A stretch of 64,000 nucleotides of DNA, from the NCBI GenBank assembly GCA_947497065.1, contig CANMEQ010000002.1, forward strand, positions 248,001 to 312,000, in the 5' to 3' direction. Each line of letters begins with the position of its first letter. The stretch's first letter is position 1. The translations under genes were made by a program, and so were the position numbers. Origin of the DNA: an uncultured Paracoccaceae bacterium (GTDB lineage: Bacteria > Pseudomonadota > Alphaproteobacteria > Rhodobacterales > Rhodobacteraceae). Below the pieces are notes generated by a model. It was not told where the DNA came from and did no database searches. It was given only the letters and a program-made list of their open reading frames with translations. Shown here piece by piece: positions 5,253 to 31,865 of this stretch.

Positions 5253-5273
5253 GGAACTTCTCCGGTAAAGTAG

Positions 5274-5293
5274 GGTGGGGGTCGCCCCCCACC
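5274..5293 (-). terminator. Intercistronic hairpin after the acyl-CoA dehydrogenase gene
   Basis: GGTGGGGG and CCCCCACC form a perfect 8-bp GC stem around a 4-nt loop. It begins 8 nt past the stop codon at 5301 on the minus strand. There is only a weak T-rich tail, so it may slow rather than stop transcription or protect the mRNA end. Confidence 0.5.
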
Positions 5294-5300
5294 GCTCACC

Positions 5301-12409: not shown

Positions 12410-12444
12410 ACCACCGAACTGCCGCGCGATTGGGCAAAGGTCAA

Positions 12445-12462
12445 GTGTCACGGACCTGTCAC
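12445..12462 (+). promoter_or_regulatory. Pho-box candidate (PhoB site) upstream of the 5'-nucleotidase gene
   Basis: GTGTCAC-GGAC-CTGTCAC is a direct repeat of two 7-mers with a 4-nt spacer. That gives the 11-bp period of the alphaproteobacterial PhoB consensus CTGTCAT-N4-CTGTCAT. It ends 94 nt before the ATG of a secreted 5'-nucleotidase, the type of gene PhoB controls under phosphate starvation. Confidence 0.65.
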
Positions 12463-12556
12463 AGGGTGACGTTACGACCTATTTTGCGCCATTGCTTTGA
12501 CTCTCCCACCCGACTCGACCCAAGCTGGCGCCAGAAAATAACCAACGGGGGCTAAA

Positions 12557-17503: not shown

Positions 17504-18070
17504 ATGTTCATGACATTGACCGATATGGGATTTAACCAATATGTCCCCTCGCTTTGTGCGGGACATTGGGTTGAGGCACCGGAGCGCGGCGCTGGGTTTC
17601 CTGCGGGTCGTGCACTGCCTCAGGCAGGCCGCGGTTTGGGGGTCGTGGTCACCGAAACTGCGCTGTCTGGGGCTGGCGTATTGGGGTGCAAAGCGGTTGA
17701 TCTGCCGACAGAGGGGTGGGCGTTGCGCATGGACGAGGTTGCGTTTCCGGTTGGGGCCGTGGCGCACCGCCATACCCATTCGGGGGCCGGATGGCGCTAC
17801 CTTGTGTCTGGTTCGTTGCGGATAGAAAGCGCCGCGGGCGAACAGGTCATGCGCAAGGGCGACTGCTGGTTCGAGCCCGAGAACACGCCCGTGCGCGCCG
17901 TCGCGTTGCACCAAAGTGGGATCACGCGGTTCGTCCGCGCGATGGTGATCCCCCTGAGTGCAATGGGCCAATCCACATTCCAATTGTGTGACCCATCGGA
18001 TGGCGATCTGCCCCGTTTGCAAGTGACACACCGCCATTTTGATCAGCCCTATCAGGTGGATGCCGGATAG
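17504..18070 (+). CDS. Cupin-domain protein
   Basis: The 188-residue protein contains one cupin barrel. Motif 1 is VGAVAHRHTHSGAGWRYLVSGSL (metal-binding His residues), and motif 2 is KGDCWFEPENTPVRA. Cupins of this kind bind a metal and act as dioxygenases, isomerases or sugar sensors. I cannot name the substrate. It starts at an ATG with GGAGG 6 nt upstream. The end overlaps the convergent GlcG gene by 19 nt. There is no signal peptide. Confidence 0.78.
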   Translation: MFMTLTDMGFNQYVPSLCAGHWVEAPERGAGFPAGRALPQAGRGLGVVVTETALSGAGVLGCKAVDLPTEGWALRMDEVAFPVGAVAHRHTHSGAGWRYLVSGSLRIESAAGEQVMRKGDCWFEPENTPVRAVALHQSGITRFVRAMVIPLSAMGQSTFQLCDPSDGDLPRLQVTHRHFDQPYQVDAG

Positions 18071-18549
18071 TGATCCGACAGCGAAGATGTGCGCCAGTCG
18101 GGGTTTGGTTCAGCGGGTTCTGAAACAAAGCCCGCCGATTTGATGGCTTCAATGGCGCAGTACTCATCTTTGTCAGATGTGTCGCCCGAAATGCCCACAG
18201 CGCCTAGTGTGACGCCGTCTGAATTTTCAACCAACACACCACCTGGCACAGGGATGAACTGCCCACCCGATGCCGCCGCGATGGCGTTTTGAAATGCGGG
18301 GCGTTCCGATAGGCGATCGCGGATCAATCGGCTAGAAATACCCATGCCCAACGCGCCATAGGCTTTGCCGAATGCGATTTCGAACCGCACCAAACCGGAC
18401 CCATCTTCGGATTGCATGGCCACCAGTTTGCCGCCCGCATCAATCACCACCACCGTGAGCGGCAACAGCGATGCCGCGCGACCCCGCGACAGTGCTTCGG
18501 CGATGATTTTATTGGCCTTGTCCAGAGGCAGGGATGTTTGCAATCGCAT
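18052..18549 (-). CDS. GlcG/HbpS family protein (heme-binding fold)
   Basis: The 165-residue protein matches the GlcG/HbpS family. The N-terminus has LDKANKIIAEALSRG and VVVIDAGGKLVAM, and the centre has GQFIPVPGGVLV and GAVGISGDTSDKDE. The fold binds heme in HbpS of Streptomyces. GlcG is found in glycolate, glycerol and related operons, but its role is unsettled. Here it is the last gene of the malonate operon, 9 nt after dctM. It may bind the transporter's ligand or a cofactor. Confidence 0.85.
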   Translation of the reverse strand: MRLQTSLPLDKANKIIAEALSRGRAASLLPLTVVVIDAGGKLVAMQSEDGSGLVRFEIAFGKAYGALGMGISSRLIRDRLSERPAFQNAIAAASGGQFIPVPGGVLVENSDGVTLGAVGISGDTSDKDEYCAIEAIKSAGFVSEPAEPNPDWRTSSLSDHYPAST

Positions 18550-18558: not shown

Positions 18559-19914
18559 TTACTGGCTGGCAGCCCAAAGGCCGGCCCACCATGCTTCAAA
18601 ATCAAAGTTTGGCAACCATGTGACGATCTCTGGGAACATCAGCAATGCGGCGATGGTGATCACATCTGCGATGAAAAACAAAGCAACGCCCCGAAAGATT
18701 GTGCCCAGTGGAATGTCGGGTCGCACGCCATTCACGACGAAACAGTTCAATCCGATGGGCGGCGTGATCAGGCAAACTTCGGCCATTTTCACGGCGATAA
18801 TTCCGAACCAGATGGGGTCGAACCCAAGGGCGATCACGGCAGGGTAGACCACTGGGAGGGTCAAAAGCAGCATCCCTATAGCATCCATGAACATGCCCAA
18901 AACAGCATATCCCAACAGAATGCAGATCATGATAGTCATTGGCGCCACGTCGAGGCCTACGATCCATTCTGTGAACGCGCCGGGGATGCCGGAAAAGCCC
19001 AAAAACCGCACAAAGATGAGGACGCCCCAAATCAGGGAGAAAATCATCACGGTGAGTTTTGCACTTTCCATCAGACTGTCTTTGATGGACTTCAAAGGCG
19101 TGCCGCGCACGAGCGCCAAAATGAGAACCACAGCCGCGCCCAATGCGCCTGCTTCGGTGGGGGTGGCCCAGCCGCCATAGATTGAGGTCATGATAATGAT
19201 GACGACCAACAAAATGGGGGAGATGCCCGGCAAAGTACGCACGCGCTCGCGCCAGGTGAACCCTTTGACAGATGGAGCCGATCCGGGTTTGACCATGGCC
19301 CAAACCACGATAATGCCTGCATAAACGATGGCCGAGAAAATGCCGGGCAAGAAGCCTGCCAACAACAATTTCCCAACCGATTGTTCAACGATAATCGCAT
19401 AGATCACCAAAATCGCGGAGGGCGGAATGAGGGTCGCCAGCGTGCCTGCGGATGCCACAACACCAGCGGCCATACGCCGGTCGTAACCGTATTTGAGCAT
19501 TTCGGGGATCGCCACGCGGCTGAACACAGCTGCCGTTGCTGTGGAGGCGCCGGACACTGCGGCGAACCCTGCTGTTGCAAATACGGTTGCGACAGCTAAT
19601 CCGCCTGGCATCCAGCCCAGCCATTTTCGTGCGGCGTCGAACAATTGCTGGGTCATCCCGGCGTGGAACGCAAGAAACCCAATAAAGATGAACATCGGCA
19701 AAACGGACAGCGCATAGGCCGATGATTTGGAATGAGGGATCGTGCCTACGATTCCAGCTGCAGGCCCCCAACCGCGCAGCTCAACCAGCCCAAGCAGGCC
19801 AACTACAGCCGCGGCAAAAACGACGCGGACGCCGAGGAGGATCAGCAGCAGCAACAAGCCGAGCGTGATCATGCCCACCAAAAATGGGTCGGACATTCCG
19901 ATACCTAAGATCAT
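18559..19914 (-). CDS. dctM: TRAP transporter large membrane subunit (DctM), malonate cluster
   Basis: The 451-residue protein has about twelve membrane segments of the DctM type, with SGASTATAAVFSRVAIPEM and SAGTLATLIPPSAILVIYA as hallmarks. It forms the sodium-coupled translocation pore with DctQ. The start at 19914 overlaps the dctQ stop by ATGA; a second ATG at 19896 is also possible. The context (malonyl-CoA enzymes upstream, GlcG downstream) points to malonate or a close C3/C4 dicarboxylate as cargo, as in the matPQM systems of rhizobia. Confidence 0.92.
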   Translation of the reverse strand: MILGIGMSDPFLVGMITLGLLLLLILLGVRVVFAAAVVGLLGLVELRGWGPAAGIVGTIPHSKSSAYALSVLPMFIFIGFLAFHAGMTQQLFDAARKWLGWMPGGLAVATVFATAGFAAVSGASTATAAVFSRVAIPEMLKYGYDRRMAAGVVASAGTLATLIPPSAILVIYAIIVEQSVGKLLLAGFLPGIFSAIVYAGIIVVWAMVKPGSAPSVKGFTWRERVRTLPGISPILLVVIIIMTSIYGGWATPTEAGALGAAVVLILALVRGTPLKSIKDSLMESAKLTVMIFSLIWGVLIFVRFLGFSGIPGAFTEWIVGLDVAPMTIMICILLGYAVLGMFMDAIGMLLLTLPVVYPAVIALGFDPIWFGIIAVKMAEVCLITPPIGLNCFVVNGVRPDIPLGTIFRGVALFFIADVITIAALLMFPEIVTWLPNFDFEAWWAGLWAASQ

Positions 19915-20546
19915 GATTTGCCCTCCGGGTCGGGGAGATCTGCATCGTCACCCATAACTTCGTGAATTTCGTCTTGGGCCTGTTCGGCGACATCTTTGGC
20001 GATCACCACACCGACCGGCGCGAGATCTGGATTGGCAAAAAGCCGGAGAGAGCCGGCGAACTGGATCGCCAACCTGATCCACCAGATCGCAAACGCGATT
20101 GGCACCAGCAGTTTCGAGGGCCAGGTGACGTATTCAGCATCCATCGTTGTGTCACCGGTGGTGTAGGCGCGCAGAAAATGGCCGTACCCGTAATAGATCA
20201 GCACCCCGATGATAAACATCGCGACAGCCGCACCAAAGGCTTCGGTGGCCCACAACATGCGCCCTTTTAGACGCCCGGCCAGCAGTTCCATCCGGATATG
20301 GCTGCCCAAACGTTGGCAATACGCGGCGCCCAAAAACGCCATAGAGGCCATCGAAAGCTCGACGAGATCGATGTACCCTTTGATGGGTGAATTGAAGAGA
20401 GTTCGCGCCACAATTTGGGTCACACCCAGAAGCATCAGAGCGACAATAGCAAACGCGGCAATCAAATTTGCCAGGTCTTCGATTGGCATCATGCCCCGAT
20501 GCACGCGGCCCAATAGCCCACCATTTTGGTCTGAATTTACAGCCAT
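19911..20546 (-). CDS. dctQ: TRAP transporter small membrane subunit (DctQ), malonate cluster
   Basis: The 211-residue protein has four membrane segments (about residues 25-180) with the DctQ pattern (VARTLFNSPIKGYIDLVELSM, LGSHIRMELL). Both tails are hydrophilic, and the C-terminal tail is unusually long and acidic (about 35 residues ending DADLPDPEGKS). It couples the binding protein to DctM. It lies 81 bp downstream of dctP, with a strong hairpin between them. Confidence 0.9.
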   Translation of the reverse strand: MAVNSDQNGGLLGRVHRGMMPIEDLANLIAAFAIVALMLLGVTQIVARTLFNSPIKGYIDLVELSMASMAFLGAAYCQRLGSHIRMELLAGRLKGRMLWATEAFGAAVAMFIIGVLIYYGYGHFLRAYTTGDTTMDAEYVTWPSKLLVPIAFAIWWIRLAIQFAGSLRLFANPDLAPVGVVIAKDVAEQAQDEIHEVMGDDADLPDPEGKS

Positions 20547-20627: not shown

Positions 20628-21656
20628 TTATTGGTTTTTCGCTTCTTCTGCGTAGGCCCAAACAGCGTCGAACACTGCTTGTGCATCAAAATCGCCTTGG
20701 TTGGCTTCGATCCAGGCGTCCCAAACAGGCTGGCCAGCCACTTCGCGGAATTCTGCGATTTGTTCGTCCGAATATGTGACCGCTTCAAGCGTTTCGTTGA
20801 AAACAGGCAGGTTCTTCTCGTCCTGCTCGGCGTAGGCCGCTTGTTCAACTTCCATGCCCATATCGCGAAGGCCCATCAGCAAAGATTGGTACTGCTCAGG
20901 CAATGCGTCATAGGCGGTTTTGTTGAACACCCAACCACACTCTGACGTGCCGGGCGTGAGGTTCGCTGTGAACCAATCCGCCTCTTCAGAAATACCGAAA
21001 GACACGTGGGCATAGGTAAACGGGAATGCCGCCGCATCAACAGCGCCACGTTGGAAAGCCGTTGACGTTTCACCAGCCGGTAATGAGGTCGGCACGGCGC
21101 CCAATGCTTCCATTGCGGACCCTAGACCACCGCCTGCACGCACGCGAAGGCCATCCCAATCGCTCAGCTCCGTCGGGGCGTCGCCTTTGCCGAGGATCTC
21201 ATACTGCGGCAAAAGGCCGGACATGTAGGGGATCGCGTTCCACTGTTCCATGTCCGCAACGATAGCGGGGTGTTCGAACATTTTCGCGCGCACGTAACGG
21301 TCTACGTCTGGGTCACCCAGTGGCAGGAACGGCAATGAAAACACCATCCAAGCCGGGTTCTTACCCGGGTGATAGAAGTTGCAGATCGCAGCGCCTTCGA
21401 AGGCGTTCAATTGCAGCCCATCGAGATTTTCACGTGATGCAGACAGCTGCGCACCGTAGAAAATTTCGATGTTAAAGTTGCCGCCGGTCTGTTCGCGAAC
21501 TTCGTCAGCGACGGCTTCCATGCCCGCAGACAGTGCGCGTGGGTTGCCCCACATGGAAAAGCTCCAGTTCACTTCAGGACCTTCGACAGTCTGCGCAAAA
21601 GCAGCCGTTGAGGCCAGCAACGTGGTTGCCATGGTAAGTGCTTTAAGGGTCTTCAT
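20628..21656 (-). CDS. dctP: TRAP transporter solute-binding protein (DctP), malonate cluster
   Basis: The 342-residue protein starts with a signal peptide (MKTLKALTMATTLLASTAAFAQ). The mature part has the DctP fold, with WDGLRVRAGGGLGSAMEALGAVPTSL in the usual place of the Arg that binds a carboxylate. The ATG at 21656 has GGGAGGA 5 nt upstream; the frame extends further up but without a signal. It delivers the ligand to DctQM. Malonate is inferred from the adjacent malonyl-CoA synthetase and decarboxylase, not from the sequence. Confidence 0.92.
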   Translation of the reverse strand: MKTLKALTMATTLLASTAAFAQTVEGPEVNWSFSMWGNPRALSAGMEAVADEVREQTGGNFNIEIFYGAQLSASRENLDGLQLNAFEGAAICNFYHPGKNPAWMVFSLPFLPLGDPDVDRYVRAKMFEHPAIVADMEQWNAIPYMSGLLPQYEILGKGDAPTELSDWDGLRVRAGGGLGSAMEALGAVPTSLPAGETSTAFQRGAVDAAAFPFTYAHVSFGISEEADWFTANLTPGTSECGWVFNKTAYDALPEQYQSLLMGLRDMGMEVEQAAYAEQDEKNLPVFNETLEAVTYSDEQIAEFREVAGQPVWDAWIEANQGDFDAQAVFDAVWAYAEEAKNQ

Positions 21657-21752: not shown

Positions 21753-23243
21753 TCAGCTGCTATAGGTGGCGCGAAGAACGTTTTTCTGAACCTTCCCCAT
21801 GGTGTTGCGGGGCAGTGCATCCAGCAAAATATAGCGACGCGGGTGTTTGAACCGCGCGAGGTGGGGCTCGACCAATGCGCGGATTGCGTCATCTGTCAGA
21901 TTGGCGTCTTCTAGAACAACAGCTGCCAAAACGCTTTCGCCGAAATCCGCATTCGGGATGCCAAACACAGCGCTTTCCAGAACACCTGCGACATCGTTGA
22001 TCACGTCTTCAATTTCTTTCGGGTAGATATTGTATCCACCTGAAATGATTAAATCTTTCTGTCGGCCGACAATGCTGATGCGTCCGTCTGCGTCTTTAAC
22101 ACCCAAATCGCCCGTGATGAAAAATCCGGTGTCGCGCAGTTCTTCGGCCGTCTTTTCCGGCATGTTCCAATAGCCTTGGAACACATTGTCGCCCCGGACC
22201 TCGATCATGCCGACGTCGCCCGCGGCAATTGGCGTGCCGTTGTCGGTTATTTCCACCTCCGTGCCGGGAAGCGGATAGCCGACCGTTCCCGCTACGCGGT
22301 CTCCGTCAAACGGGTTGGAGGTGATCATATTTGTTTCCGTCATCCCGTATCGTTCCAAAATACGGTGGCCGGTACGGTCCTCGAATGCGGTGTGCGTTTC
22401 GGCCAGCAGCGGCGCTGAGCCTGAGACAAACACACGCATCTTTGCCACCAAATCTTTCGTCAGGCGTGCATCGCCTAGCAGACGGGTGTAAAAGGTGGGC
22501 ACGCCCATCATCATCGTCGATTTTGGAAGCTCATCGACGATCACATCTACATCGAAGGCATTCATGAAACGAACCCGCGCACCCGAAAGCAGTGAGGTGT
22601 TCATGGCCACAAACAGGCCATGGGTGTGAAAGATTGGGAGGGCGTGGATCAGCCGGTCAGCGTTTGTGATTTGCCACAGATCAGTCAGTGAAATTGCGTT
22701 GGAGAGTAGGTTTTTATGGCTCAGCATCGCGCCTTTTGAGCGGCCTGTCGTGCCCGATGTGTACAGCAATGCGGCCAAATCATCCGGTCCGCGTGTCACG
22801 GTCGTGAAGGACGTGGGCTGATCGTTGGCCTGACGGCTAAGTGTGCCCGATGCATCATTCGACAACGTCATCACCTGCCTTCCGTCGCCGCAAATGTCTC
22901 TCATTTCATCAGCGTTTTGCGGGGCGCAAACAACCACGCGTGGCGCCGCGTCCGTGATGAAGTAGCTGACCTCTGATTTTGTGTAGGCGGTGTTGAGCGG
23001 CAGATAAACCGCCCCCGCCTGAACCGCCGCGCCGTATAATGCGATTGCATCAGCCGTTTTGGGGCCTTGTACCACAACGCGGTCCCCAGGGGTGACGCCA
23101 GCGTTCACCAAAACATGGGCCAGCTGCGCAACACGGGCGACGAACTGCGCGTAGGTCACGGATGTTCCATCGTCGAGGTCTAAGAAGACGGCCTCGTTTT
23201 GGGCATGTGGGGCAATCAGCGCATCGTAAAGTGTATTGGTCAC
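21753..23243 (-). CDS. matB: Malonyl-CoA synthetase (MatB)
   Basis: This 496-residue adenylate-forming enzyme converts malonate, ATP and CoA to malonyl-CoA. The P-loop is YTSGTTGRSKGA. HALPIFHTHGLFVAMN is characteristic of MatB, the A5 motif is YGMTETNM, and the A7/A8 region is GDLGVKDADGRISIVGRQKDLI. The catalytic lysine is in RNTMGKVQK at the C-terminus. The start overlaps the malonyl-CoA decarboxylase stop by ATGA. The pairing with MatA and a TRAP importer makes malonate use the best interpretation. Confidence 0.93.
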   Translation of the reverse strand: MTNTLYDALIAPHAQNEAVFLDLDDGTSVTYAQFVARVAQLAHVLVNAGVTPGDRVVVQGPKTADAIALYGAAVQAGAVYLPLNTAYTKSEVSYFITDAAPRVVVCAPQNADEMRDICGDGRQVMTLSNDASGTLSRQANDQPTSFTTVTRGPDDLAALLYTSGTTGRSKGAMLSHKNLLSNAISLTDLWQITNADRLIHALPIFHTHGLFVAMNTSLLSGARVRFMNAFDVDVIVDELPKSTMMMGVPTFYTRLLGDARLTKDLVAKMRVFVSGSAPLLAETHTAFEDRTGHRILERYGMTETNMITSNPFDGDRVAGTVGYPLPGTEVEITDNGTPIAAGDVGMIEVRGDNVFQGYWNMPEKTAEELRDTGFFITGDLGVKDADGRISIVGRQKDLIISGGYNIYPKEIEDVINDVAGVLESAVFGIPNADFGESVLAAVVLEDANLTDDAIRALVEPHLARFKHPRRYILLDALPRNTMGKVQKNVLRATYSS

Positions 23244-24541
23244 GACGTAGGTTCCTTGGGTTTGGTGACAAAGGCCGCAGTGATCAACGATTGAACTGTG
23301 CGAGACATCGCAACACTTCCACCTCGGGCAAAGTCTTCGTGGTTTTTCTCAGTCTGGCTGAGATCGTAAAGGTAATTCACCATCGCGCCACTTGATTGTT
23401 TGCGCCCATTTTCTGAGCTGTCCGCATTGGCATGAACATCGTGAATTTCCGCGCCGTTGCCGAGGTGAAAGCGGGCTACGGGATCAACGGGTTGATCTGT
23501 GTCACCGCGTTTCGCCGTCGCCAAATACCGTGCGGCCAGGGCCCGGACATCCGTTTCAGGGGCTGTGCCGTCCAGAACTGCGCGTGCCACGGGGGCGAGG
23601 GCTGGGTCGTCCTCCTGTTGGGTCAACCATCGGTTCAATCCCGGAATAGGAGATAGGGTCACGAAATTTTCGATCTGTGGGTATTCAAGCGCCAGTTCGG
23701 CGGCCACTTGTTTGATCAAAAGGTTTCCGAAACTGATGCCAGCCAAGCCACGTTGGCAGTTTGAAATAGAATAATACACCGCCACTTTCGCGTCTTCCGC
23801 CTGCAAGGGCTCGCGCCCTTCTGACAGAACATCATCAATCGATCCCGGCAAGCTGTCGGTTAGGGCGACCTCGACAAAAATGAGCGGCTCGTCGGGCATA
23901 GCGGGATGGAAAAACGCGAAACATCGGCGATCTGGCGGGTCCAGACGGCGGCGCAGATCGTCGAGGTCATCGATTTCGTGAACCGCTTCATAGGCGACGA
24001 TTTTATCGAGCACGCGCGCGGGCGTGTCCCAGTTGATTTGTTTAAGTACCAGAAAACCGCGATTGAACCAGCTGCTGAGAAGATGAACGAAATCAATGTT
24101 TGTGCGCAGCAAGTCTTTGTTGCTTTTGGCCAAACGCAAAAGATCGACCCGCATCGAAACCAAATCAGATGTGGCGCCCATTGGCTGGTTCAAACGTCGC
24201 AAAAGCTCTTGGCGTTTCGGTTCGGCTGCCTTTGATAGTTTTTCAAAAATGTCTGTGGTGGGCGAGTGTTCGTAAACCTTGGCCAATGCACCAAGCGCGC
24301 TTGCGTCGATGTCGAGTTCCGTGTTCAGAAATTCGAAAAATGCTAGTTTTTCGGCTTCGGAGAGCTGACGGTACTGCGCCAATATAGCTGTCGCCAGCTT
24401 TTGCCCCGACACATCGCCTTCTTTGGACAGTAATGCGCGACACAATTGATGAATGTCGCGGGCATCATCCTCTTTGGACCAAACGCTGCGCCGATCAAAA
24501 AGTGTCGACAACATATCCGTTAAGAATCGATTGCGTTGCAT
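23240..24541 (-). CDS. matA: Malonyl-CoA decarboxylase (MatA)
   Basis: The 433-residue protein matches the MCD family. It has an N-terminal helical domain (about residues 1-180) and a catalytic GNAT-like domain with HPAMPDEPLIFVEVAL, YYSISNCQRGLAGISFGN, FVTLSPIPGLNRWL and ARFHLGNGA. The serine in TLSPIPG and the histidine in FHLGNG correspond to the catalytic residues of the human enzyme. The reaction turns malonyl-CoA into acetyl-CoA and CO2. The ATG at 24541 has GGAGA upstream. A 12-bp palindrome lies 36-47 nt upstream of the start. Confidence 0.93.
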   Translation of the reverse strand: MQRNRFLTDMLSTLFDRRSVWSKEDDARDIHQLCRALLSKEGDVSGQKLATAILAQYRQLSEAEKLAFFEFLNTELDIDASALGALAKVYEHSPTTDIFEKLSKAAEPKRQELLRRLNQPMGATSDLVSMRVDLLRLAKSNKDLLRTNIDFVHLLSSWFNRGFLVLKQINWDTPARVLDKIVAYEAVHEIDDLDDLRRRLDPPDRRCFAFFHPAMPDEPLIFVEVALTDSLPGSIDDVLSEGREPLQAEDAKVAVYYSISNCQRGLAGISFGNLLIKQVAAELALEYPQIENFVTLSPIPGLNRWLTQQEDDPALAPVARAVLDGTAPETDVRALAARYLATAKRGDTDQPVDPVARFHLGNGAEIHDVHANADSSENGRKQSSGAMVNYLYDLSQTEKNHEDFARGGSVAMSRTVQSLITAAFVTKPKEPTS

Positions 24542-24576
24542 CGTGCGTCTCCAAGGGTCTTGAAAGACGCTCCCAT

Positions 24577-24588
24577 AAAATCGATTTT
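24577..24588 (-). promoter_or_regulatory. Operator candidate upstream of matA
   Basis: AAAATCGATTTT is a perfect 12-bp palindrome in the 78-bp gap between the GntR gene and matA. The same AAAATCGAT core returns at 25732-25740 in the divergent promoter region of the next cluster. It is a candidate binding site for the GntR protein or for another shared regulator. Confidence 0.45.
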
Positions 24589-24619
24589 ACTGCAAATGAA
24601 TTATTTAAATCGCTAAAAA

Positions 24620-25291
24620 TCAAAGGTCACTCAAGGGGGCTGTCAAGTAGTCGCCCGTTACCCGGTAGTGGTTCATCAAGGCGTCACTCGCAGCTGATGC
24701 ATCTCCGCGCACAGCGGCGTCTAGAATGTCTTCGTGTTCTGAAGCGACGTTGCGTTTGCGGTAGTTTGTGCCGGCGGCGGCAAGATAGCGGTAGCGAATG
24801 TTCAGATCATAGAGCTGGCCACAATATCGTAGCAAAATCGGTGAATCGGCATTGTCGAGCAGCGCCATGTGGAAGGCTTTGTGGGCTTCCTCGAATTCGG
24901 GAATGCCTCCATCGGCTGTGGCGCGTTTCATCCGGTGATGGGATAGGACCAATTTTTCTTCCCAATCGGGCGTCGCATTGGCAATGGATTGGCGCAACGC
25001 CATGTCTTCCAATGCGCAACGCAAGGTTAGAATTTCTTGGAAATTGGCCAAGCTGGCCGGGGCGGCCCGAAACCCCCTTTGGTCTAACCGCTCTACCAAC
25101 ATATCTGATGTCAGCAGGCTAAGCGCCTCACGGACGGGGGAGGCGCCAGTGTCCAGCCGCGTACGAAGTTGTTCGATTTTGAGCTTTTCGCCCGCCGCCA
25201 GTTCACCTGTTAGAATCATTTGTCGCAACGTGAGGTATGCGGTGCGTGTGGCAGATGTTTCTTTGCCATCGGAGTGTTGCATCAAGTTCAT
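24620..25291 (-). CDS. GntR family regulator, FCD subfamily
   Basis: The 223-residue protein has an N-terminal winged helix (about residues 12-75; TLRQMILTGELAAGEKLKIEQL, ASPVREALSLL) and a C-terminal FCD effector domain. Its metal-binding-type His residues are in HKAFHMALL, SEHEDIL and MNHYRVTGD. FCD regulators usually bind small organic acids and repress catabolic genes. It sits just before matA, as MatR does in rhizobia, and just after the YCII gene, so it could govern the malonate operon, the aromatic-like cluster, or both. The ATG at 25291 has GAAGGGA upstream. Confidence 0.88.
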   Translation of the reverse strand: MNLMQHSDGKETSATRTAYLTLRQMILTGELAAGEKLKIEQLRTRLDTGASPVREALSLLTSDMLVERLDQRGFRAAPASLANFQEILTLRCALEDMALRQSIANATPDWEEKLVLSHHRMKRATADGGIPEFEEAHKAFHMALLDNADSPILLRYCGQLYDLNIRYRYLAAAGTNYRKRNVASEHEDILDAAVRGDASAASDALMNHYRVTGDYLTAPLSDL

Positions 25292-25323: not shown

Positions 25324-25707
25324 TCAGGTGAGACCGACAGTCTTTTTCGACAGGCCAACCGACAACGTCAGCGATCCTTCATTTATCATCCATCGCCGTA
25401 AGGTAAATGTGCGTGCTCCGGATTGATGCATCGGATCGGATTCAGCCAATTTACGCGCGGTTTCTATGCTGTCGGCACGGTAAATGATCATTCCCATGCC
25501 TTGCATCAATTCGCCCGTGTCGTCCGACATAGGCCCGGCGAAGGCCAATGCGCCGCTTTCCTCAAGCTCTGCCTGATAGGCGAGGTGGGCGGGAAGGTTC
25601 GCTTTCACGTCTTCTGGCGCTTTTGCTGGGGTGCTGAGCGCCACGAAAAGTTCCAAAGCCAACGCGCCGCGTTCTTTCGCGTGTTGGTGATACTCCGACC
25701 ATTTCAT
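25324..25707 (-). CDS. YCII-related protein, possible chlorohydroxyquinol dehydrochlorinase relative
   Basis: The 127-residue protein fits the YCII fold, a ferredoxin-like alpha/beta dimer. The conserved stretch is LPAHLAYQAELEESGALAFAGPMSDD, in which His41 is the likely acid/base residue. It has an unusual Lys-rich C-terminus (GLSKKTVGLT). TftG, the 5-chlorohydroxyhydroquinone dehydrochlorinase of Burkholderia AC1100, belongs to this superfamily and works next to a hydroxyquinol dioxygenase, as this gene does here. That parallel is inference. A general YCII protein of unknown role is the safe call. The start at 25707 has GGGGGA 6 nt upstream. Confidence 0.75.
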   Translation of the reverse strand: MKWSEYHQHAKERGALALELFVALSTPAKAPEDVKANLPAHLAYQAELEESGALAFAGPMSDDTGELMQGMGMIIYRADSIETARKLAESDPMHQSGARTFTLRRWMINEGSLTLSVGLSKKTVGLT

Positions 25708-25730
25708 GGCAATTCCCCCTAGTTTTGATA

Positions 25731-25751
25731 AAAAATCGATATTTGTTGACA
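25731..25751. promoter_or_regulatory. Divergent control region of the YCII and FAH genes
   Basis: AAAATCGATATT (25732-25743) is a near-palindrome sharing AAAATCGAT with the matA operator candidate. A consensus -35 hexamer TTGACA overlaps next to it at 25746-25751 on the plus strand, 50 nt before the FAH ATG. The matching -10 box is not clear. The 94-bp gap must contain promoters for both directions. Confidence 0.4.
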
Positions 25752-25801
25752 TTTGATCTGATTGTAGTCAGAAATTTTTGAAACTTACAAGGATTGGTTC
25801 G

Positions 25802-26686
25802 ATGAAATATCTGGTTGGCACAACTTCTGAGGGCACCTGCGTCTTTGCTGTAAAGGGCGATATGGCTGTAAACCTTACGGCTTTGGACAGCGCGGTGGGG
25901 GCGGATCTCTCGGCGTTGATTGCCACACCGGGGTTGGCAGAATCACTGGAGGGAAAGCTGGATGGTGCGCCATCGGTTCCGGTCTCATCGATCACACCTG
26001 CGTTGCCCGTCGCAAAGCCTGGTACGATCATTTGTATGGGGTTGAACTACACAGATCACATCAAAGAGGGTGGCTATGATATCCCCGAATATCCAGCGCT
26101 GTTCATGCGTGGTAAAAATTCGATCATGGCCGCGGGTGCGCCACTGGTGCGGCCAGCGTGTTCTGAGAAGTTGGACTATGAGGCCGAGTTGATGATCATC
26201 GTCGGCACGGGGGGGCGGCACATTAAAAAGGCTGACGCCTTAGATCACGTGTTTGGGTATACCGTTTTCAACGATGGCTCTGTGCGCGACTATCAGCGCA
26301 AAACCCACCAATGGACGCCCGGAAAGAACTTTGACAACACAGGCGCGATTGGACCGTTCACGGTGACCCCTGACGAGGTGCCTGCAGGGGCTGCAGGATT
26401 GAAAATCGAGAGCCGGGTCGGTGATGAAATTCTACAGTCTTCAAACACGGCGAATATGATTTGGGATGTGGCGACGGTGATTGAAACCGTGTCAGAATAT
26501 ACGACGCTAGAGCCGGGGGATCTGATTGCGATGGGAACACCTCCGGGGGTTGGTCACGCCAAAAAGCCAGAGCCGCGTTGGTTGAAGCCGGGCGAAGTGG
26601 TCGACATCGAGATCGAAGGTATCGGGATTTGTTCGAACCCGATCGTGGATGAGGCGGATTTTAACGCATCGGTAGCGGCACAATGA
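25802..26686 (+). CDS. Fumarylacetoacetate hydrolase (FAH) family enzyme
   Basis: The 294-residue protein has the FAH metal-binding pattern. Glu127 and Glu129 lie in DYEAELMIIVG, and Asp158 in GYTVFNDGSVRDYQ. The ring near ICMGLNYTDHI and PPGVGHA completes the active site. FAH-family enzymes cleave C-C bonds of acylpyruvates or hydrate and decarboxylate oxo-enoates in aromatic catabolism. Here it is the first gene of the divergent cluster that ends with an intradiol dioxygenase, so it may process a ring-fission product. The ATG at 25802 has AAGGA upstream. The next gene overlaps it by ATGA. Confidence 0.9.
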   Translation: MKYLVGTTSEGTCVFAVKGDMAVNLTALDSAVGADLSALIATPGLAESLEGKLDGAPSVPVSSITPALPVAKPGTIICMGLNYTDHIKEGGYDIPEYPALFMRGKNSIMAAGAPLVRPACSEKLDYEAELMIIVGTGGRHIKKADALDHVFGYTVFNDGSVRDYQRKTHQWTPGKNFDNTGAIGPFTVTPDEVPAGAAGLKIESRVGDEILQSSNTANMIWDVATVIETVSEYTTLEPGDLIAMGTPPGVGHAKKPEPRWLKPGEVVDIEIEGIGICSNPIVDEADFNASVAAQ

Positions 26687-27348
26687 GCGCGCCTACAGGA
26701 GCAGAACTGGGCGCATTGCGCGCCAAGGCCCAACAGGACCACCGCGATTTGCGGTCGCGCATCGCACGACTGGACGCCGATTCCATCGATCTGATATTGC
26801 GTGATGCGCGGTCTCATTACGCATGGACCGACAAGCCTATTCCTGACGGGCTGCTTGAAGAGATCTTCGATATTACAATCAATGGTGCGACGTCGATGAA
26901 CACGTTGCCCGCGCGGTTTGTTTTCGTGAAAACGCCTGAAGGAAAAGAGCGGCTGGCAAAATCGCTAAAGCCGCAGAACGTTTCCAAAATGATGGGCGCG
27001 CCGGTAACCGCGATTATCGCACAGGACATGAACTTCTGGCACGAACTGCCGTTTTTGTTCCCGCACGAAGACCGTCGACACCTGTTTGATGGAAACGAGG
27101 CCTACTGTCAGGATACGGCTGATCGGAACGCGACGCTGCAAGGCGCGTATTTCATGATTGCTGCGCGGGCTGTCGGGCTGGATGTCGGGGCCATGTCAGG
27201 TTTCTCCAACCAGATTGTTGATGAGGAATTTTTTAAAGGCACTAGCCTGAAATCAAATTTCCTGTGCAACATAGGGTATGCTGACGAAACCGCGTTGTTT
27301 CAAAAACTACCGCGTTTTCCATTCGATAAAGTATGCAGCTACGCCTGA
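26683..27348 (+). CDS. RutE/HadB-like nitroreductase family protein
   Basis: The 221-residue FMN protein resembles RutE, the malonic semialdehyde reductase of pyrimidine degradation. Shared stretches are ARFVFVKTPEGKERL, APVTAIIAQD, LPFLFPHEDRR, GLDVGAMSGF and STLKSN-type LKSNFLCNIGY. It should bind FMN and use NAD(P)H. In this setting two roles are plausible: reduction of malonic semialdehyde, which would tie it to the malonate block, or reduction of a quinone or nitroaromatic intermediate, which would tie it to the dioxygenase. It has an extra N-terminal helix of about 25 residues. Confidence 0.85.
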   Translation: MSAPTGAELGALRAKAQQDHRDLRSRIARLDADSIDLILRDARSHYAWTDKPIPDGLLEEIFDITINGATSMNTLPARFVFVKTPEGKERLAKSLKPQNVSKMMGAPVTAIIAQDMNFWHELPFLFPHEDRRHLFDGNEAYCQDTADRNATLQGAYFMIAARAVGLDVGAMSGFSNQIVDEEFFKGTSLKSNFLCNIGYADETALFQKLPRFPFDKVCSYA

Positions 27349-27364
27349 GGAGGGGCGGACGTTC

Positions 27365-27823
27365 ATGGCCATCAAAGCGAAAACCGTTGTGACATATCGT
27401 GCGACTGCGCAATGTCCGACACATGCGCGCACGGAAATTCCGGTGCGAAACCTCGATGTGATCATCGACGAACCTGAAGAGCGGGGCGGTACCAATTTGG
27501 GCCCGACCCCAACCGAAGCTGCGATGACTGCGTTGATCGCCTGCACCAATGTGATTGGCCACAAAAACGCCAAACGACTTGGGGTGGATTTGGGGCAGGT
27601 CACGATTGATGCGGCCTGTCAGTTCGATCGCCGCGGTGTGTTGATGCAAGAAGAAATCGATGTGCCGTTTCCCGCCGTTACGCTGACTGTGAATTGCGAC
27701 ACGGAGGCCAGTTTGGAGGAACTGGAGGCCGTGGGCGTTGAAACAGCCAAGTACTGCGCGATTGCCAAGTTGTTTGAAGGCGCGGGGACCGACCTGACCG
27801 TAAATTGGGTGAAGGCAAATTAA
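27365..27823 (+). CDS. OsmC family protein
   Basis: The 152-residue protein has the OsmC fold with the two redox cysteines in TALIACTNVIGHKNAKR and TAKYCAIAKLFEGAG. The family reduces organic hydroperoxides with thiols, though several members in catabolic operons have unknown tasks. The ATG at 27365 has GGAGGGG upstream, so the longer upstream frame is not used. It lies 16 nt after the nitroreductase gene and 54 nt before the TRAP genes. It might protect against peroxides formed by ring-cleavage chemistry; this is a guess. Confidence 0.85.
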   Translation: MAIKAKTVVTYRATAQCPTHARTEIPVRNLDVIIDEPEERGGTNLGPTPTEAAMTALIACTNVIGHKNAKRLGVDLGQVTIDAACQFDRRGVLMQEEIDVPFPAVTLTVNCDTEASLEELEAVGVETAKYCAIAKLFEGAGTDLTVNWVKAN

Positions 27824-27877
27824 GTAAACTAAAAACGGGGTGGAGGAGCCCCATCATGTTTCTGGGAGGAAAACAAC

Positions 27878-28951
27878 ATGATCAACTGGACCAAAAAAAC
27901 ACTGGCTGGTGCAGCCTTGGCAACGCTCACGGCGCTGCCTGTTGCGGCACAAGAGACCGTTTCTGCTGTCGTGATTGACGGCTATCCGGACCGCGCCCTT
28001 TGGGTGCGCGAGTTTACGAACTTCTTTATCCCTGAAGTCGACCGTCGCTTGGCAGAAGCCGGTAACTACGAAATGGATTGGCAAGAAAACTACGGCGGTT
28101 CCATTGTGAAACCACGTGGTGTTCTCGAAGGCGTTCAGTTGGGTTTGGGCGATATCGGTATCGTTACAACGATTTTCCACAGCTCGAAGTTACCAAGCCA
28201 AGGCATTTCAGGGTCAACGCCATTCGTCGCCTCTGATGCGCGCGCAGTTGCGCAAGCGGTTGACGAGATTGCACGCGAATACCCTGCGATGAACAATGAG
28301 TTCGAAGCGCAAAACCAAGTGTATCTTGCGACCGGCGTTGTTTTGGACAGCTATCAGATGTTCTGCTCTGAAGAGGTCGCGTCGACCTCCGACCTTGATG
28401 GTATGAAAATCGCAGGCGCGGGTTTGAACCTACGGTACTTGGAGGGTCTGAATGATGCCGCAGGTGTGCGTGGCGGCCTGACCGATTTCTACAACATGTT
28501 GCAAACGGGCTTGGTTGATTGTGGGATGTTGTGGCCAGAAGCGGCTGCGACCTTCAAGATTTCTGAGGTTGCTCCTTACATGATGCGTACGGATTTTGGG
28601 GCGGTGAATTCTAAAACCATCACTGTGAACGCGGACTATTGGGCAGGTCTCCCCGATGAGGTCAAAGAAGTTCTTCAGGCGGTTGCGATTGATTACCGCG
28701 ATCACCTTGCCGGCATCGCAATGGACCGTGCCGCGGCCTCTGAAGCCGCTTATGTTGAATCAGGTGGCACGATCATTGAAGTGCCCGCAGCGGACCGTGA
28801 AGCTTGGGCCAATGCCATGCCAAACATTGCGCAGGAATGGGCCACAACCCTGAACGACGCAGGCGAGCCGGGCACGGAAATGCTCGAAGCCTATTTGGGC
28901 AAGCTTGAAGCAGCCGGTTTCACCGGTGTTCGTGACTGGACGGCTGAATAA
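27878..28951 (+). CDS. dctP: TRAP transporter solute-binding protein (DctP), second system
   Basis: The 357-residue protein begins with a signal peptide (MINWTKKTLAGAALATLTALPVAAQ). It is only distantly similar to the DctP of the malonate cluster. The ligand loop is SDLDGMKIAGAGLNLRYLEGLNDAAG, without the usual RVPG-type arginine at that exact spot, so a non-standard or aromatic acid ligand is possible. It is the first gene of a full TRAP set that ends with a dioxygenase gene. Cargo unknown. Confidence 0.9.
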   Translation: MINWTKKTLAGAALATLTALPVAAQETVSAVVIDGYPDRALWVREFTNFFIPEVDRRLAEAGNYEMDWQENYGGSIVKPRGVLEGVQLGLGDIGIVTTIFHSSKLPSQGISGSTPFVASDARAVAQAVDEIAREYPAMNNEFEAQNQVYLATGVVLDSYQMFCSEEVASTSDLDGMKIAGAGLNLRYLEGLNDAAGVRGGLTDFYNMLQTGLVDCGMLWPEAAATFKISEVAPYMMRTDFGAVNSKTITVNADYWAGLPDEVKEVLQAVAIDYRDHLAGIAMDRAAASEAAYVESGGTIIEVPAADREAWANAMPNIAQEWATTLNDAGEPGTEMLEAYLGKLEAAGFTGVRDWTAE

Positions 28952-28984
28952 GCCACGAAAAGCGACCTGAAAGGGGCTCAATTC

Positions 28985-29536
28985 ATGCTAAATTCGGCAT
29001 TCTCTGGCCTCTCTCGGGTCGCCAATTTTTTCGCAATCATTGCCAACGCCTTAGGGACCCTTGTGGTCTTGGCGTTGGTGGTGATCCTCAATCTGGACGT
29101 CATCGCACGGGGGGTGTTTTCCGAACCGATCCCCGGTGTCTATGAAATGGTCCAGTTCTCGGTCGTGTTGATCGTGTTTTTACAGCTGGCAGACGTGGTG
29201 CGCGTTGATCGGTTGACGCGATCTGACGGGTTCTTGACCGTGATTGGCGGCAAACGCCCCCACATTGCCGCGAATATGCGGCGAATAATAAACGCGGTGT
29301 CAGCGATTTTTATGGGGTTGGTAGCCTACATCACATTCCCCGAATTCCTGCACATGTGGGACACCCAAGATTATTTCGGCGTGCCAGGCTTGTTCACCTT
29401 GCCGTGGTGGCCCGTCAAACTGGTCATTTCATTCGGGACCGCACTGTCGTGCCTCGTGTTCGTGATCAAAGTTATTTCCGCGCAGGACCGCCCTCAGCTG
29501 GTTCGCGCCCCAGAACATGAAGAGACGTCCAAATGA
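28985..29536 (+). CDS. dctQ: TRAP transporter small membrane subunit (DctQ), second system
   Basis: The 183-residue protein has four membrane segments. DctQ features are VILNLDVIARGVFSEPIPGVYEMVQFSVVLIVFLQLADVV and the later LPWWPVKLVISFGTALSCLVF. It starts 33 nt after dctP and overlaps dctM by ATGA. It links the binding protein to the DctM pore. Confidence 0.9.
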   Translation: MLNSAFSGLSRVANFFAIIANALGTLVVLALVVILNLDVIARGVFSEPIPGVYEMVQFSVVLIVFLQLADVVRVDRLTRSDGFLTVIGGKRPHIAANMRRIINAVSAIFMGLVAYITFPEFLHMWDTQDYFGVPGLFTLPWWPVKLVISFGTALSCLVFVIKVISAQDRPQLVRAPEHEETSK

Positions 29537-30837
29537 CCCCCATTGAGATCGGCCTCATCTCGGTCGTTGCTATCGTTTTCCTGATCTATTCGGGTGTCTA
29601 TATTCCGATCGCGCTGGGCATGGTGTCCTTCGTGTCGATTTGGCTGATGCGGGATAATTTCACGCTTGCGCTGAACCTTCTGAAGATCGCCGTGGGCGAC
29701 AGTGCGATGGAATATTCCTTTGCCACGATCCCGTTGTTTACCTTCATGGGATTAATCGTGTCGAAGGCGGGATTAGGGCGCGATATCTATGAAGTCATGA
29801 CGATGCGGTTCCGCAAAGTGAAGGGCGGGATCGGGATGGCCACCGTGGGCGCAAACGCCGTATTTGCCGCGGTGACAGGATCGTCCATCGCGTCGGCATC
29901 GGTGTTTACGAAAGTATCTGTGCCGCAGATGATCGCCCAAGATTACAATCCACGGTTTGCCGTGGGCGTCGTTGCGGGGTCGTCCGTATTGGGCATGATC
30001 ATTCCGCCATCGGCGATGTTGATCATCTATTCCTTTGTCGCAGAACAATCTGTCGGTGACATGTTCTTGGCTGGTGTAATTCCTGGCATCATGCTGGCTG
30101 TCGCCTATGTCGCGGCCATTTGGTTTATGGGGCGCTTCACCCCAAATTTCGTGGGGGGGCGTGTGGTGGAAGACACCGAGTGGATGTCACGCCGCGAGAT
30201 TGCTTCTAAAACGTTGCCGACGTTGGCGTTGATCACCATCGTCCTAGGCGGGATCTACACCGGTTGGATGACCGCTGTGGAAGCAGGGGCCACTGGCGCG
30301 TTGGTCGCCCTCATCATCGCCTTGGTGCGTCGTTCGATGACACTCAAAACCTTTTGGGAGGCCTTGTTGGAGACAGGCCATATCACGGCGGCGATCTTGT
30401 TCCTGATCACAGCAGCTTCGATTTATAGCCGGATGTTGGGATTAGCCGGATTGCCAAACCAGTTGCAAGATATTTTGGCCGGAAACTCAGCATCCTTTTG
30501 GTCGATTATGTTGCTCTACGTACTCTTGATGCTGTTCTTGGGCACCTTGCTGGACACCGCATCAATCATCTTGATTGTCGTCCCGCTGTTCTTGCCACTT
30601 GTCGAAGCGTTGGATCTGTCTTTGATCTGGTTTGGCATCGTGACGGTTGTGGGGGCTGAAATTGGCCTGCTCACGCCGCCGCTGGGGATATCGTGTTTCG
30701 TGATCAAATCGACGATCAACGATGATCGGATTTCACTGAAGGATGTGTTCATGGGCGCGTTGCCGTTCGCCTTTGTGATGCTCATCATTCTCTTCATTTT
30801 GATCGAATTCCCGATCCTCAGCCTCGCTCTACTGTAA
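29533..30837 (+). CDS. dctM: TRAP transporter large membrane subunit (DctM), second system
   Basis: The 434-residue protein has about twelve membrane segments. DctM hallmarks are AVTGSSIASASVFTKVSVPQM and SSVLGMIIPPSAMLIIYSFVAEQS. It forms the sodium-coupled pore. Its stop is 12 nt before the dioxygenase gene, so uptake and ring cleavage are on one transcript. The sequence differs clearly from the first DctM, so the two systems are not a recent duplication. Confidence 0.92.
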   Translation: MTPIEIGLISVVAIVFLIYSGVYIPIALGMVSFVSIWLMRDNFTLALNLLKIAVGDSAMEYSFATIPLFTFMGLIVSKAGLGRDIYEVMTMRFRKVKGGIGMATVGANAVFAAVTGSSIASASVFTKVSVPQMIAQDYNPRFAVGVVAGSSVLGMIIPPSAMLIIYSFVAEQSVGDMFLAGVIPGIMLAVAYVAAIWFMGRFTPNFVGGRVVEDTEWMSRREIASKTLPTLALITIVLGGIYTGWMTAVEAGATGALVALIIALVRRSMTLKTFWEALLETGHITAAILFLITAASIYSRMLGLAGLPNQLQDILAGNSASFWSIMLLYVLLMLFLGTLLDTASIILIVVPLFLPLVEALDLSLIWFGIVTVVGAEIGLLTPPLGISCFVIKSTINDDRISLKDVFMGALPFAFVMLIILFILIEFPILSLALL

Positions 30838-30849
30838 GGACCACACTCT

Positions 30850-31722
30850 ATGCGTAATGTTACCAAAGACAACATCACAGACGTTTTCAAAGGCTACATG
30901 GCCGATGATATGGCCCCGCGTACACGCGAGATTATGTCATCTCTGGTTCAGCATTTGCATGACTTCGCCCGCGAAACCAATTTGACCCATGACGAATGGC
31001 GGGCAGGTATCGCGTTTCTTGAAGGCTGTGCGGCCATCGAAACAGAGGACCGCCACGAGTTTGTTTTGGCATCTGATGTATTGGGCCTGTCGTCGTTGGT
31101 AGACATGCTTCATTCCAAGCCAGAGGCAACGTCTTCGTCCGTTCTGGGGCCGTTTCACGTGTCAGGTGCGCCGCCTTTGGCCTATGGCGGCGATATGAAA
31201 CGCCATTACGGTGGTCCGATCCTGTTGGCAGAAGGGACAGTGAAAGACGTTGATGGAAACCCAATCGCGGGGGCTGAATTAGATATTTGGCAGACCGCGC
31301 CGAACGGACTCTATGCTAGCCAAGACGACGAACAGGAAACATTTTCGTTCCATGGCTTGATGACAGTGGGCGATGATGGGCGATATGCGTTCACAACCGT
31401 GAAACCTGTTGAATACACGGTGCCCTCGGATGGGCCGGTGGGTGATATCCTGCGGGCCTGTGGGCGTCATCCATGGCGGCCCTCGCACCTGCATTACATC
31501 ATCACAGCGCCGGGCTATAAATCATTGGTCACTGAAATCTTCCCCGAAGATGATCCGTATTTGGACCAAGATACTGTTTTCGGTGTCCGTGACGATTTGG
31601 TGATGACCTATGTTGAAAAGCCCGCGTCAGCGTTTCCTGAAGGTTTAGAATTGTCAGGCAAAATATCTGACGAGACATTTTTGCATGTCGAGTTTGACGT
31701 TACCCTGGCCGCAGCAGAATAA
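30850..31722 (+). CDS. Intradiol ring-cleavage dioxygenase, hydroxyquinol 1,2-dioxygenase type
   Basis: The 290-residue protein has the N-terminal helical dimerisation domain of the catechol/hydroxyquinol class (REIMSSLVQHLHDFARE) and a catalytic beta-sandwich. The four ferric-iron ligands are visible: Tyr155 in NGLYASQD, Tyr189 in VEYTVPSDGPVG, and His213 and His215 in RPSHLHY. Hydroxyquinol dioxygenases open 1,2,4-trihydroxybenzene to maleylacetate. The exact substrate (hydroxyquinol, catechol or a substituted catechol) is not fixed by these motifs. It is the last gene of the TRAP-FAH-nitroreductase-OsmC cluster. No maleylacetate reductase is present here. Confidence 0.9.
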   Translation: MRNVTKDNITDVFKGYMADDMAPRTREIMSSLVQHLHDFARETNLTHDEWRAGIAFLEGCAAIETEDRHEFVLASDVLGLSSLVDMLHSKPEATSSSVLGPFHVSGAPPLAYGGDMKRHYGGPILLAEGTVKDVDGNPIAGAELDIWQTAPNGLYASQDDEQETFSFHGLMTVGDDGRYAFTTVKPVEYTVPSDGPVGDILRACGRHPWRPSHLHYIITAPGYKSLVTEIFPEDDPYLDQDTVFGVRDDLVMTYVEKPASAFPEGLELSGKISDETFLHVEFDVTLAAAE

Positions 31723-31790: not shown

Positions 31791-31865
31791 GCGGGTGTTG
31801 TGTAATGGTTAAGACCCCAGTTTTCCAAACTGGAGATGAGGGTTCGATTCCCTCCACCCGCTCCA
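31791..31865 (+). tRNA. tRNA-Gly (anticodon TCC)
   Basis: A full cloverleaf is seen: acceptor GCGGGTG/CACCCGC, anticodon stem CCAGT/ACTGG with loop TTTCCAA (anticodon TCC), T-arm GAGGG-TTCGATT-CCCTC, and an encoded 3' CCA. Confidence 0.97.

Follow-up and report, generated by a model that had tools for sequence, protein, structure and literature searches.

A ring-cleavage cluster of Rhodobacteraceae that may couple the breakdown of an uncharged polyhydroxylated benzene to malonate assimilation

In a 64,000-nucleotide stretch of contig CANMEQ010000002.1 from an uncultured Paracoccaceae bacterium (hereafter the window), a gene for a YCII protein faces, across a divergent promoter, an arm that encodes a hydrolase of the fumarylacetoacetate hydrolase (FAH) superfamily, a RutE-like flavoprotein, an OsmC protein, the DctP, DctQ and DctM components of a tripartite ATP-independent periplasmic (TRAP) importer and a hydroxyquinol-type dioxygenase. 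Our tentative reading is that this cluster is part of a regulon that serves the catabolism of an uncharged polyhydroxylated benzene, of which 1,2,3,5-tetrahydroxybenzene (THB) or a precursor of it would be the simplest candidate. The set occurs in many marine bacteria and probably serves to take up an uncharged polyhydroxylated ring compound, open the ring and obtain pyruvate and malonate.

Domain and NCBIfam scans recovered, at the same positions, all gene families named in a preliminary description of this DNA, and the ATGA overlaps noted there are present between the FAH and nitroreductase genes and between the DctQ and DctM genes. That description took the locus for one divergent pair of transcripts. 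Both arms are real, but the minus arm continues beyond YCII, from 25291 down to 18052: 32 bp past YCII lies a GntR/FCD regulator, followed after 78 bp by malonyl-CoA decarboxylase (MCD), the malonyl-CoA synthase MatB (4-bp overlap), a second TRAP transporter and an HbpS-like gene. A mat-type set of MCD, MatB, TRAP transporter and GntR regulator is complete in the window. The true starts of YCII (127 aa) and FAH (294 aa) are probably inside the called open reading frames. The features are:

18052-18549, minus: HbpS-like gene closing the second TRAP run (PF03928, 96.1 bits); adjoins the same TRAP genes in L038, L047 and L141
18559-19914, minus: second TRAP DctM (PF06808)
19911-20546, minus: second TRAP DctQ (PF04290)
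about 20628-21656, minus: second TRAP DctP (PF03480; start by codon-usage call)
21753-23243, minus: MatB, malonyl-CoA synthase (NF005702, 746.9 bits, cut-off 558)
23240-24541, minus: MCD, malonyl-CoA decarboxylase (PF05292, 305.7 bits; PF17408, 75.1 bits)
24576-24589, no strand: operator-like palindrome TAAAATCGATTTTA in the GntR-MCD gap (18.4 bits, matrix from 63 promoters)
24620-25291, minus: GntR/FCD regulator (PF00392 and PF07729)
25324-25707, minus: YCII protein (PF03795, 51.9 bits; 127-aa start by alignment)
25731-25744, no strand: operator-like palindrome AAAAATCGATATTT in the divergent promoter (26.1 bits)
25802-26686, plus: FAH-superfamily hydrolase, proposed 2,4-dioxoadipate hydrolase (PF01557, 219.9 bits)
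26683-27348, plus: RutE-type nitroreductase-fold flavoprotein, proposed quinone reductase (NF003768, 250.2 bits, cut-off 152)
27365-27823, plus: OsmC-family protein, proposed peroxidase (PF02566, 46 bits, scanned as open reading frame 27278-27823)
27878-28951, plus: DctP TRAP binding protein lacking the carboxylate-binding Arg (A179, by alignment)
28985-29536, plus: DctQ TRAP small permease (PF04290)
29533-30837, plus: DctM TRAP large permease (PF06808, 281.9 bits)
30850-31722, plus: hydroxyquinol-type intradiol dioxygenase of the type-1 clade (PF00775 and PF04444)

A tRNA-Gly(TCC) gene (31791-31865) lies directly 3' of the dioxygenase gene.

Conservation and the malonate genes

Relatives were drawn from 149 genomes of the same family, the window's own included, of which 56 have some dioxygenase match. 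Eighteen were classed as type 1, on 17 long dioxygenase matches at 54-100% identity and a 59% fragment in G035; a fragment in G014 (97 residues, 55%) was excluded. Gene contexts were fetched for the other 17 type-1 loci and for 23 lower-identity dioxygenase matches. A set of named genomes supplied a further 80 loci, which are close relatives since they are the best of 317 encoded dioxygenase matches (70-93% identical). Neighbours in these 80 were counted at an identity of at least 45%, contig-edge loci included, from tblastn matches and gene callers; the longest-ORF caller gave many false antisense genes, and a codon-usage caller was used instead.

The genes that the preliminary description had grouped are indeed kept together, with conserved synteny across the 80 named loci. 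Near the dioxygenase lie DctM and DctQ (77 loci each), DctP (74), the nitroreductase (71), YCII and GntR (70 each), FAH (69), OsmC (65), MatB (47) and MCD (46). Named carriers are mostly from the Roseobacter group, with Roseibium and a few metagenome-assembled genomes labelled otherwise (L130, L139, L143), and the majority of the 18 type-1 loci have the gene set, OsmC being missing from several. One locus, L042, is a short contig; L048 (9535-14486, from G035) has its dioxygenase, DctM and nitroreductase in several pieces, as a decaying copy or an assembly error would. In L043 (10781-15641) the dioxygenase lies beside genes for an alpha/beta hydrolase, 3-oxoacid CoA-transferase subunits, acetate kinase and phosphate acetyltransferase. 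In L079 (Ruegeria; 10886-13193) amidohydrolase-like, weakly YtkA-like and di-haem cytochrome peroxidase (MauG-type) genes follow 3' of the dioxygenase, and this amidohydrolase-like family occurs in 16 loci. The set can also sit on a plasmid, since L173 (1-18855), with MatB and MCD and no annotated OsmC, is on pDY25-C of Pacificitalea manganoxidans, where the labels read malonyl-CoA synthase, malonyl-CoA decarboxylase, YciI, FAH, malonic semialdehyde reductase, TRAP, dioxygenase and GntR.

In 52 of the 80 named loci a distance of 5-196 bp separates MatB, MCD or both from YCII, GntR or FAH, and MCD falls within the stretch in 8 of the 18 genus-level type-1 loci. The gene orders vary between lineages (MatB-MCD-GntR-YCII, MatB-MCD-YCII, MCD-YCII and MCD-MatB-YCII), and five loci have MatB after GntR and no MCD within the stretch, which in one of them, L115, stops 188 bp past MatB. 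In L139, a metagenome contig whose FAH, MCD and MatB are only 47, 42 and 56% identical to those of the window, dioxygenase, FAH, MCD and MatB are encoded in that order on the same strand, 91, 5 and 34 bp apart. Genome-wide, MCD was found in 15 of the 18 type-1 genomes versus 35 of the 131 others (Fisher p 5e-6). Twenty non-cluster MCDs were fetched; MatB adjoins 18 of them, a relative of the TRAP DctM adjoins 16, and no cluster gene is present. On a tree of 47 MCDs (27 cluster, 20 non-cluster) the most economical placement of the cluster label takes four changes, and four are imposed by starred branches, with the Roseibium cluster MCDs nesting among non-cluster ones; gains and losses are indistinguishable on this tree, in which the L139 and L046 rows have long branches. 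It is unlikely that MatB and MCD became linked to the cluster through a single accident of neighbourhood. Known mat malonate-utilisation operons (TRAP-MCD-MatB) have MCD, MatB, a TRAP set and a GntR regulator in common with the window but stand without the cluster genes, whereas here MatB and MCD are joined to a ring-cleavage set.

The two arms also share a palindrome (consensus AAATATCGATATTA), found in 63 of 69 YCII-FAH divergent promoters. The 8-mer ATATCGAT or its complement occurs in 63 of the 69 regions, against a maximum of 6 after shuffling (plain shuffles, the loci being related). The palindrome is present again in the GntR-MCD gap of the window and in 13 of 45 GntR-MCD/MatB gaps of the named loci, versus 0.7-0.9% of random 110-bp stretches. 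Among the other 32 gaps, 20 are only 2-3 bp long, pointing to a single transcript, and the remaining 12, which are longer, have no such site. Across the 3.25-Mb genome the exact pattern WAAATCGATWTTW has three copies, of which two belong to this locus, and a reversed control pattern has none; the third copy (C7:49170), beside cobalamin-synthesis genes (TP_methylase, CbiG), is read as chance. The GntR/FCD protein is probably the regulator of both arms, acting at this common site.

The second TRAP transporter is presumed from its position to import malonate and, because it adjoins MatB and MCD, external malonate is probably used too. Its place in the same arm as MatB and MCD, together with a palindrome common to both arms, would also suit the idea that a malonyl conjugate is imported, or malonate met alongside the ring compound, malonate then being a nutrient set free with it and not a piece of the ring. 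However, no esterase or amidase domain was found among the scanned cluster proteins, and in the 51 loci with MatB or MCD in the minus arm the next gene is a second TRAP DctP in 3 and a different one in 42, of which 16 lie on the opposite strand; in the other 6 the stretch ends there. Because that DctP follows in only 3 of the 51, MatB and MCD are for the most part kept without an adjoining malonate importer, and we regard a conjugate or companion nutrient as an improbable source of the linkage.

Ring cleavage, import and the accessory proteins

The dioxygenase has both a Dioxygenase_N and a Dioxygenase_C domain, and the iron ligands listed for it earlier (Tyr155, Tyr189, His213 and His215) are in place and invariant in 17 of 17 aligned orthologues. 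It is of hydroxyquinol type and not of catechol type, as had been proposed, matching PnpC at 5.3e-71 and 1TMX, which we take to be the Nocardioides hydroxyquinol enzyme, at 5.1e-67, versus 8.5e-35 for the best catechol dioxygenase. In a 54-row tree the type-1 dioxygenases form one clade (100/98) and those designated type 2, described below, another (100/100), both apart from the enzymes that adjoin a maleylacetate reductase. Type-1 and type-2 rows carry the motif Y[TEMK]VP (17/17 and 8/8, Y-T-V-P in the window), and Y[PS]IP is found in 8 of 9 maleylacetate-reductase-linked rows, PnpC and 1TMX; the latter motif presumably lines the pocket and is not a formal family criterion. Consistent with the preliminary description, one maleylacetate reductase query at E 1e-30 found no match across the whole genome of the window, nor in 17 of the 18 type-1 genomes, which supports its suggestion that the lower pathway differs; other alcohol dehydrogenases could substitute for the enzyme. 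The lone type-1 genome with a homologue, G142, has a second dioxygenase match about 2 kb away from it on the same contig.

In TRAP binding proteins of this kind a conserved Arg binds the substrate carboxylate. At that position, as set by alignment to solved relatives, Ala (A179) is found in all 39 aligned type-1 DctPs, 38 of which were chosen from 71 named ones. The Arg is present in 0 of 23 DctP rows across type-1, type-2 and L065 clusters, and in all three DctPs examined that belong to the second TRAP type, that of the window reading R-V-R. Its loss is reported for only 3% of 6142 DctP sequences, one of which binds ethanolamine (PMC4646407). A model of the cluster DctP (pLDDT 82.8, poor at residues 75-92) has its best fold matches in TarP and marine aromatic-acid binders; the TarP proteins, which bind coumarate and cinnamate, are the nearest solved structures at 21-22% identity, and the Arg of their K-I-R motif is replaced by Ala in the type-1 cluster DctPs. 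Because the Arg is lost and the nearest folds bind aromatic acids, we infer from sequence and model that the type-1 ligand would be an uncharged aromatic, and the aromatic acid first proposed as the imported compound is disfavoured by the Ala.

The RutE-like protein is about equally similar to Escherichia coli RutE (47%) and to a nitroreductase (48%) whose gene immediately precedes that of the dioxygenase in a tcp-type cluster of Cupriavidus oxalaticus, which also has LysR, flavin reductase, HpaB monooxygenase and iron-containing alcohol dehydrogenase genes. This pairing with a dioxygenase of the same family favours the quinone-reductase role first suggested for the flavoprotein. A nitroreductase-type quinone reductase likewise lies beside a (chloro)hydroxyquinol dioxygenase, in the order seen in L172, in the tcpRXABCYD cluster of Cupriavidus for 2,4,6-trichlorophenol, TcpB being the quinone reductase (PMC4264193). 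The tcp-type cluster differs in having an HpaB-type monooxygenase, a flavin reductase and an iron-containing alcohol dehydrogenase of the maleylacetate reductase family, and in having no TRAP, FAH, OsmC, YCII, MCD or MatB among its seven scanned genes. Another RutE-like gene (L175, 6980-7573) is clustered on a plasmid of Roseibium aggregatum with genes for 4-oxalomesaconate tautomerase and aldolase, a hint of a wider quinone-reductase role. The idea that the RutE-like protein replaces maleylacetate reductase was rejected, as L065 carries both.

In a Rut-like pathway the same protein would reduce malonic semialdehyde, and it does pass the NCBIfam cut-off for malonic semialdehyde reductase. Against this, RutA is above its cut-off in 0 of the 18 type-1 genomes (weaker matches in 14), for which reason the pathway was rejected; the identity to RutE (47%) does not exceed that to the tcp-cluster protein (48%); and MCD and MatB handle malonate and not the semialdehyde. 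A Rut-like function is extremely improbable.

The YCII domain and fold were confirmed (model pLDDT 90.8), with the YciI protein HI0828 as first fold match, followed by TftG and ClcF. A profile of 44 YCII sequences gave 21.1 bits to HI0828 and 20.2 bits to TftG, the single-sequence comparison with TftG having an E-value of 0.17. This profile comparison, made in place of a tree, undercuts the specific TftG analogy drawn earlier: because the protein is no closer to TftG than to a generic YciI, a TftG function is possible, not indicated. That analogy was the start of a Tft-like route for halogenated aromatics, in which YCII would dehalogenate, the RutE-like protein reduce the quinone and the dioxygenase open hydroxyquinol. 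The route draws on the fold match to TftG and ClcF, the latter of which, like TftG, we take to be dehalogenating. A YciI gene also occurs in pnp clusters (PMC6063337), and the tft pathway for 2,4,5-trichlorophenoxyacetate pairs a YCII-superfamily protein (TftG) with a hydroxyquinol-type dioxygenase (TftH), as here (PMC3975901). The YCII kinship is nevertheless at superfamily level only, and the HpaB family (TftD/TcpA) is absent from 17 of the 18 type-1 genomes, the window's included, with a partial match in the other, which counts against a Tft- or Tcp-type start. With YCII no nearer TftG, no maleylacetate reductase and no HpaB family, the Tft-type pathway as a whole was rejected; it is very unlikely.

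The FAH protein had been counted as an extra. Its H-x-x-E pair, presumably catalytic, is kept in 15 of 15 rows, and its best NCBIfam match is 2,4-didehydro-3-deoxy-L-rhamnonate hydrolase (190.8 bits, cut-off 500). Enzymes of this superfamily hydrolyse beta-diketones such as acylpyruvates. FAH seems less of an extra once MatB and MCD, which had been overlooked, are placed beside it, as together they suggest a malonate-yielding lower pathway.

A proposed route, its difficulties and variant loci

In the proposed route the DctPQM importer, whose lost Arg is observed, would bring in a neutral polyphenol. YCII might conceivably act on the quinol or quinone, for instance by halogen removal or water addition. 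The RutE-like flavoprotein would return autoxidised hydroxyquinone to the quinol, as TcpB does, to judge from its family and the tcp-type pairing, and OsmC could clear the peroxide formed by autoxidation. The dioxygenase would cut between vicinal hydroxyl groups; on a substrate with an extra adjacent hydroxyl, the product would be 2-hydroxymaleylacetate, that is, 2,4-dioxoadipate. FAH would hydrolyse this acylpyruvate to pyruvate and malonate, so that no maleylacetate reductase would be needed. MatB and MCD, linked to the cluster in the genomes, would turn malonate into malonyl-CoA and acetyl-CoA, and the GntR/FCD protein would bind the palindromes found in both arms. By our own derivation, the 1,2,3,5-isomer is the only one that we found among the simple tetrahydroxybenzenes whose intradiol product yields malonate, with pyruvate, on hydrolysis of this kind. 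Named as 6-hydroxyhydroxyquinol, THB is an analogue of 6-chlorohydroxyquinol, which TcpC-type enzymes cleave. Brown-algal phlorotannins are a marine source of polyphenols, and their fragments may be among the neutral compounds imported. That this is a bacterial THB route (intradiol cleavage, FAH and an Arg-less TRAP importer for neutral polyphenols), to which malonate assimilation was recruited several times, we offer as a possibility with some doubt.

A number of observations weigh against the THB-to-malonate reading. The cluster has no gene recognised as encoding a THB-making enzyme, the scheme leaves YCII without an obvious task, and FAH scores above no characterised subfamily cut-off. The tcp-type cluster has the same nitroreductase pairing with a maleylacetate route, and an Arg-less SiaP mutant is reported to be still functional at high ligand concentration (PMC4646407). 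Nearby MatB and MCD are missing from 28 of the 80 named loci (8 stretches are cut inside or at the cluster, 20 are not), MCD is absent from 3 of the 18 type-1 genomes at E 1e-30, and two loci (L034, L043) have a type-1 dioxygenase alone, without the cluster. The related loci, moreover, do not count as independent samples.

The loci without FAH are not simply explained by the THB-to-malonate reading either. Five type-1 loci (L037, L039, L040, L047 and L147) have, beside or near the regulator, an HMGL/isopropylmalate-synthase-like gene (43-1257 in L037 and 934-2148 in L147, the two in which domains were checked), a gene also present in L042 and in none of the FAH-bearing type-1 loci examined, genus-level and named. 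It is possibly a non-homologous replacement of FAH; four of the five have MCD beside YCII but no MatB within the examined stretch. L141 has neither FAH nor the HMGL-like gene. In L144 the position of FAH is taken by a 3-oxoadipate-type beta-keto acid cleavage enzyme (BKACE; 5196-6005, 468 bits, cut-off 350), which fits 3-oxoadipate or maleylacetate better, and neither the RutE-like protein nor YCII was found in the examined stretch. From 8736 on, L065 joins RutE-like, YCII and Arg-less TRAP genes to a maleylacetate reductase-type iron-containing alcohol dehydrogenase and a 3-oxoadipate-type BKACE. In the type-2 clusters (L050, 3320-13731; L051-L054, L057 and L063) the dioxygenase is divergent from a citryl-CoA-lyase-like protein and a CoA-transferase III, with YCII, Arg-less TRAP, a flavin reductase-type protein and FAH in varying combinations; several also have amidohydrolase and methionine-synthase-like genes. 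The upper module is thus common to loci with different lower routes, and the type-1 substrate could still be hydroxyquinol itself.

This last possibility amounts to the route of the preliminary description minus its Tft-type start: an ordinary hydroxyquinol pathway in which maleylacetate is hydrolysed by FAH to fumarate and acetate, or decarboxylated, and the malonate genes, under the regulator of the cluster, serve a co-occurring nutrient. It has in its favour the very name of the enzyme family, the gene combination of L065 and the BKACE of L144. It leaves unexplained the repeated MatB/MCD linkage and the dioxygenase-FAH-MCD-MatB run of L139. Also against it, the type-1 dioxygenases stand in a clade of their own with an altered motif, and maleylacetate is not an acylpyruvate, the usual substrate of FAH enzymes. 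We consider an ordinary hydroxyquinol pathway rather unlikely, and continue to hold, tentatively, to a THB-like substrate.

Relation to known pathways and significance

Judged by titles and abstract openings, the cluster was not described among the matches listed in the open-licence PMC literature, and may still be in print. A central pathway through 1,2,3,5-tetrahydroxybenzene has been described in fungi and is said to seem confined to them (PMC13094099). Ring opening there is proposed for a DUF3500 protein (PMC12388069; printed DUF3550 in PMC13094099), giving 5-hydroxydienelactone; the proposed ring-cleavage substrate is the same as here, where an intradiol enzyme is proposed in place of the DUF3500 protein. 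Tetrahydroxybenzene is also a co-substrate in anaerobic pyrogallol breakdown (PMC13039779), PMC12366328 mentions it solely in the title of a reference, and PMC12442348 covers 4-hydroxybenzoate. Lake lineages are reported to be enriched in hydroxyquinol dioxygenase and maleylacetate reductase, marine ones in malonyl-CoA degradation genes (PMC10673129).

The analysis provides a hitherto orphan cluster with a few substrates that can be tested and corrects automatic labels on its proteins (malonic semialdehyde reductase, C4-dicarboxylate binding protein, dioxygenase). If the proposed route is true, it would explain what a group of TRAP binding proteins without the hallmark arginine does, and would represent, in bacteria, a type of ring breakdown hitherto described as fungal. 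It would also account for the way in which members of the Roseobacter group complete the breakdown of a polyhydroxylated ring in the absence of maleylacetate reductase, tying ring cleavage to malonate.

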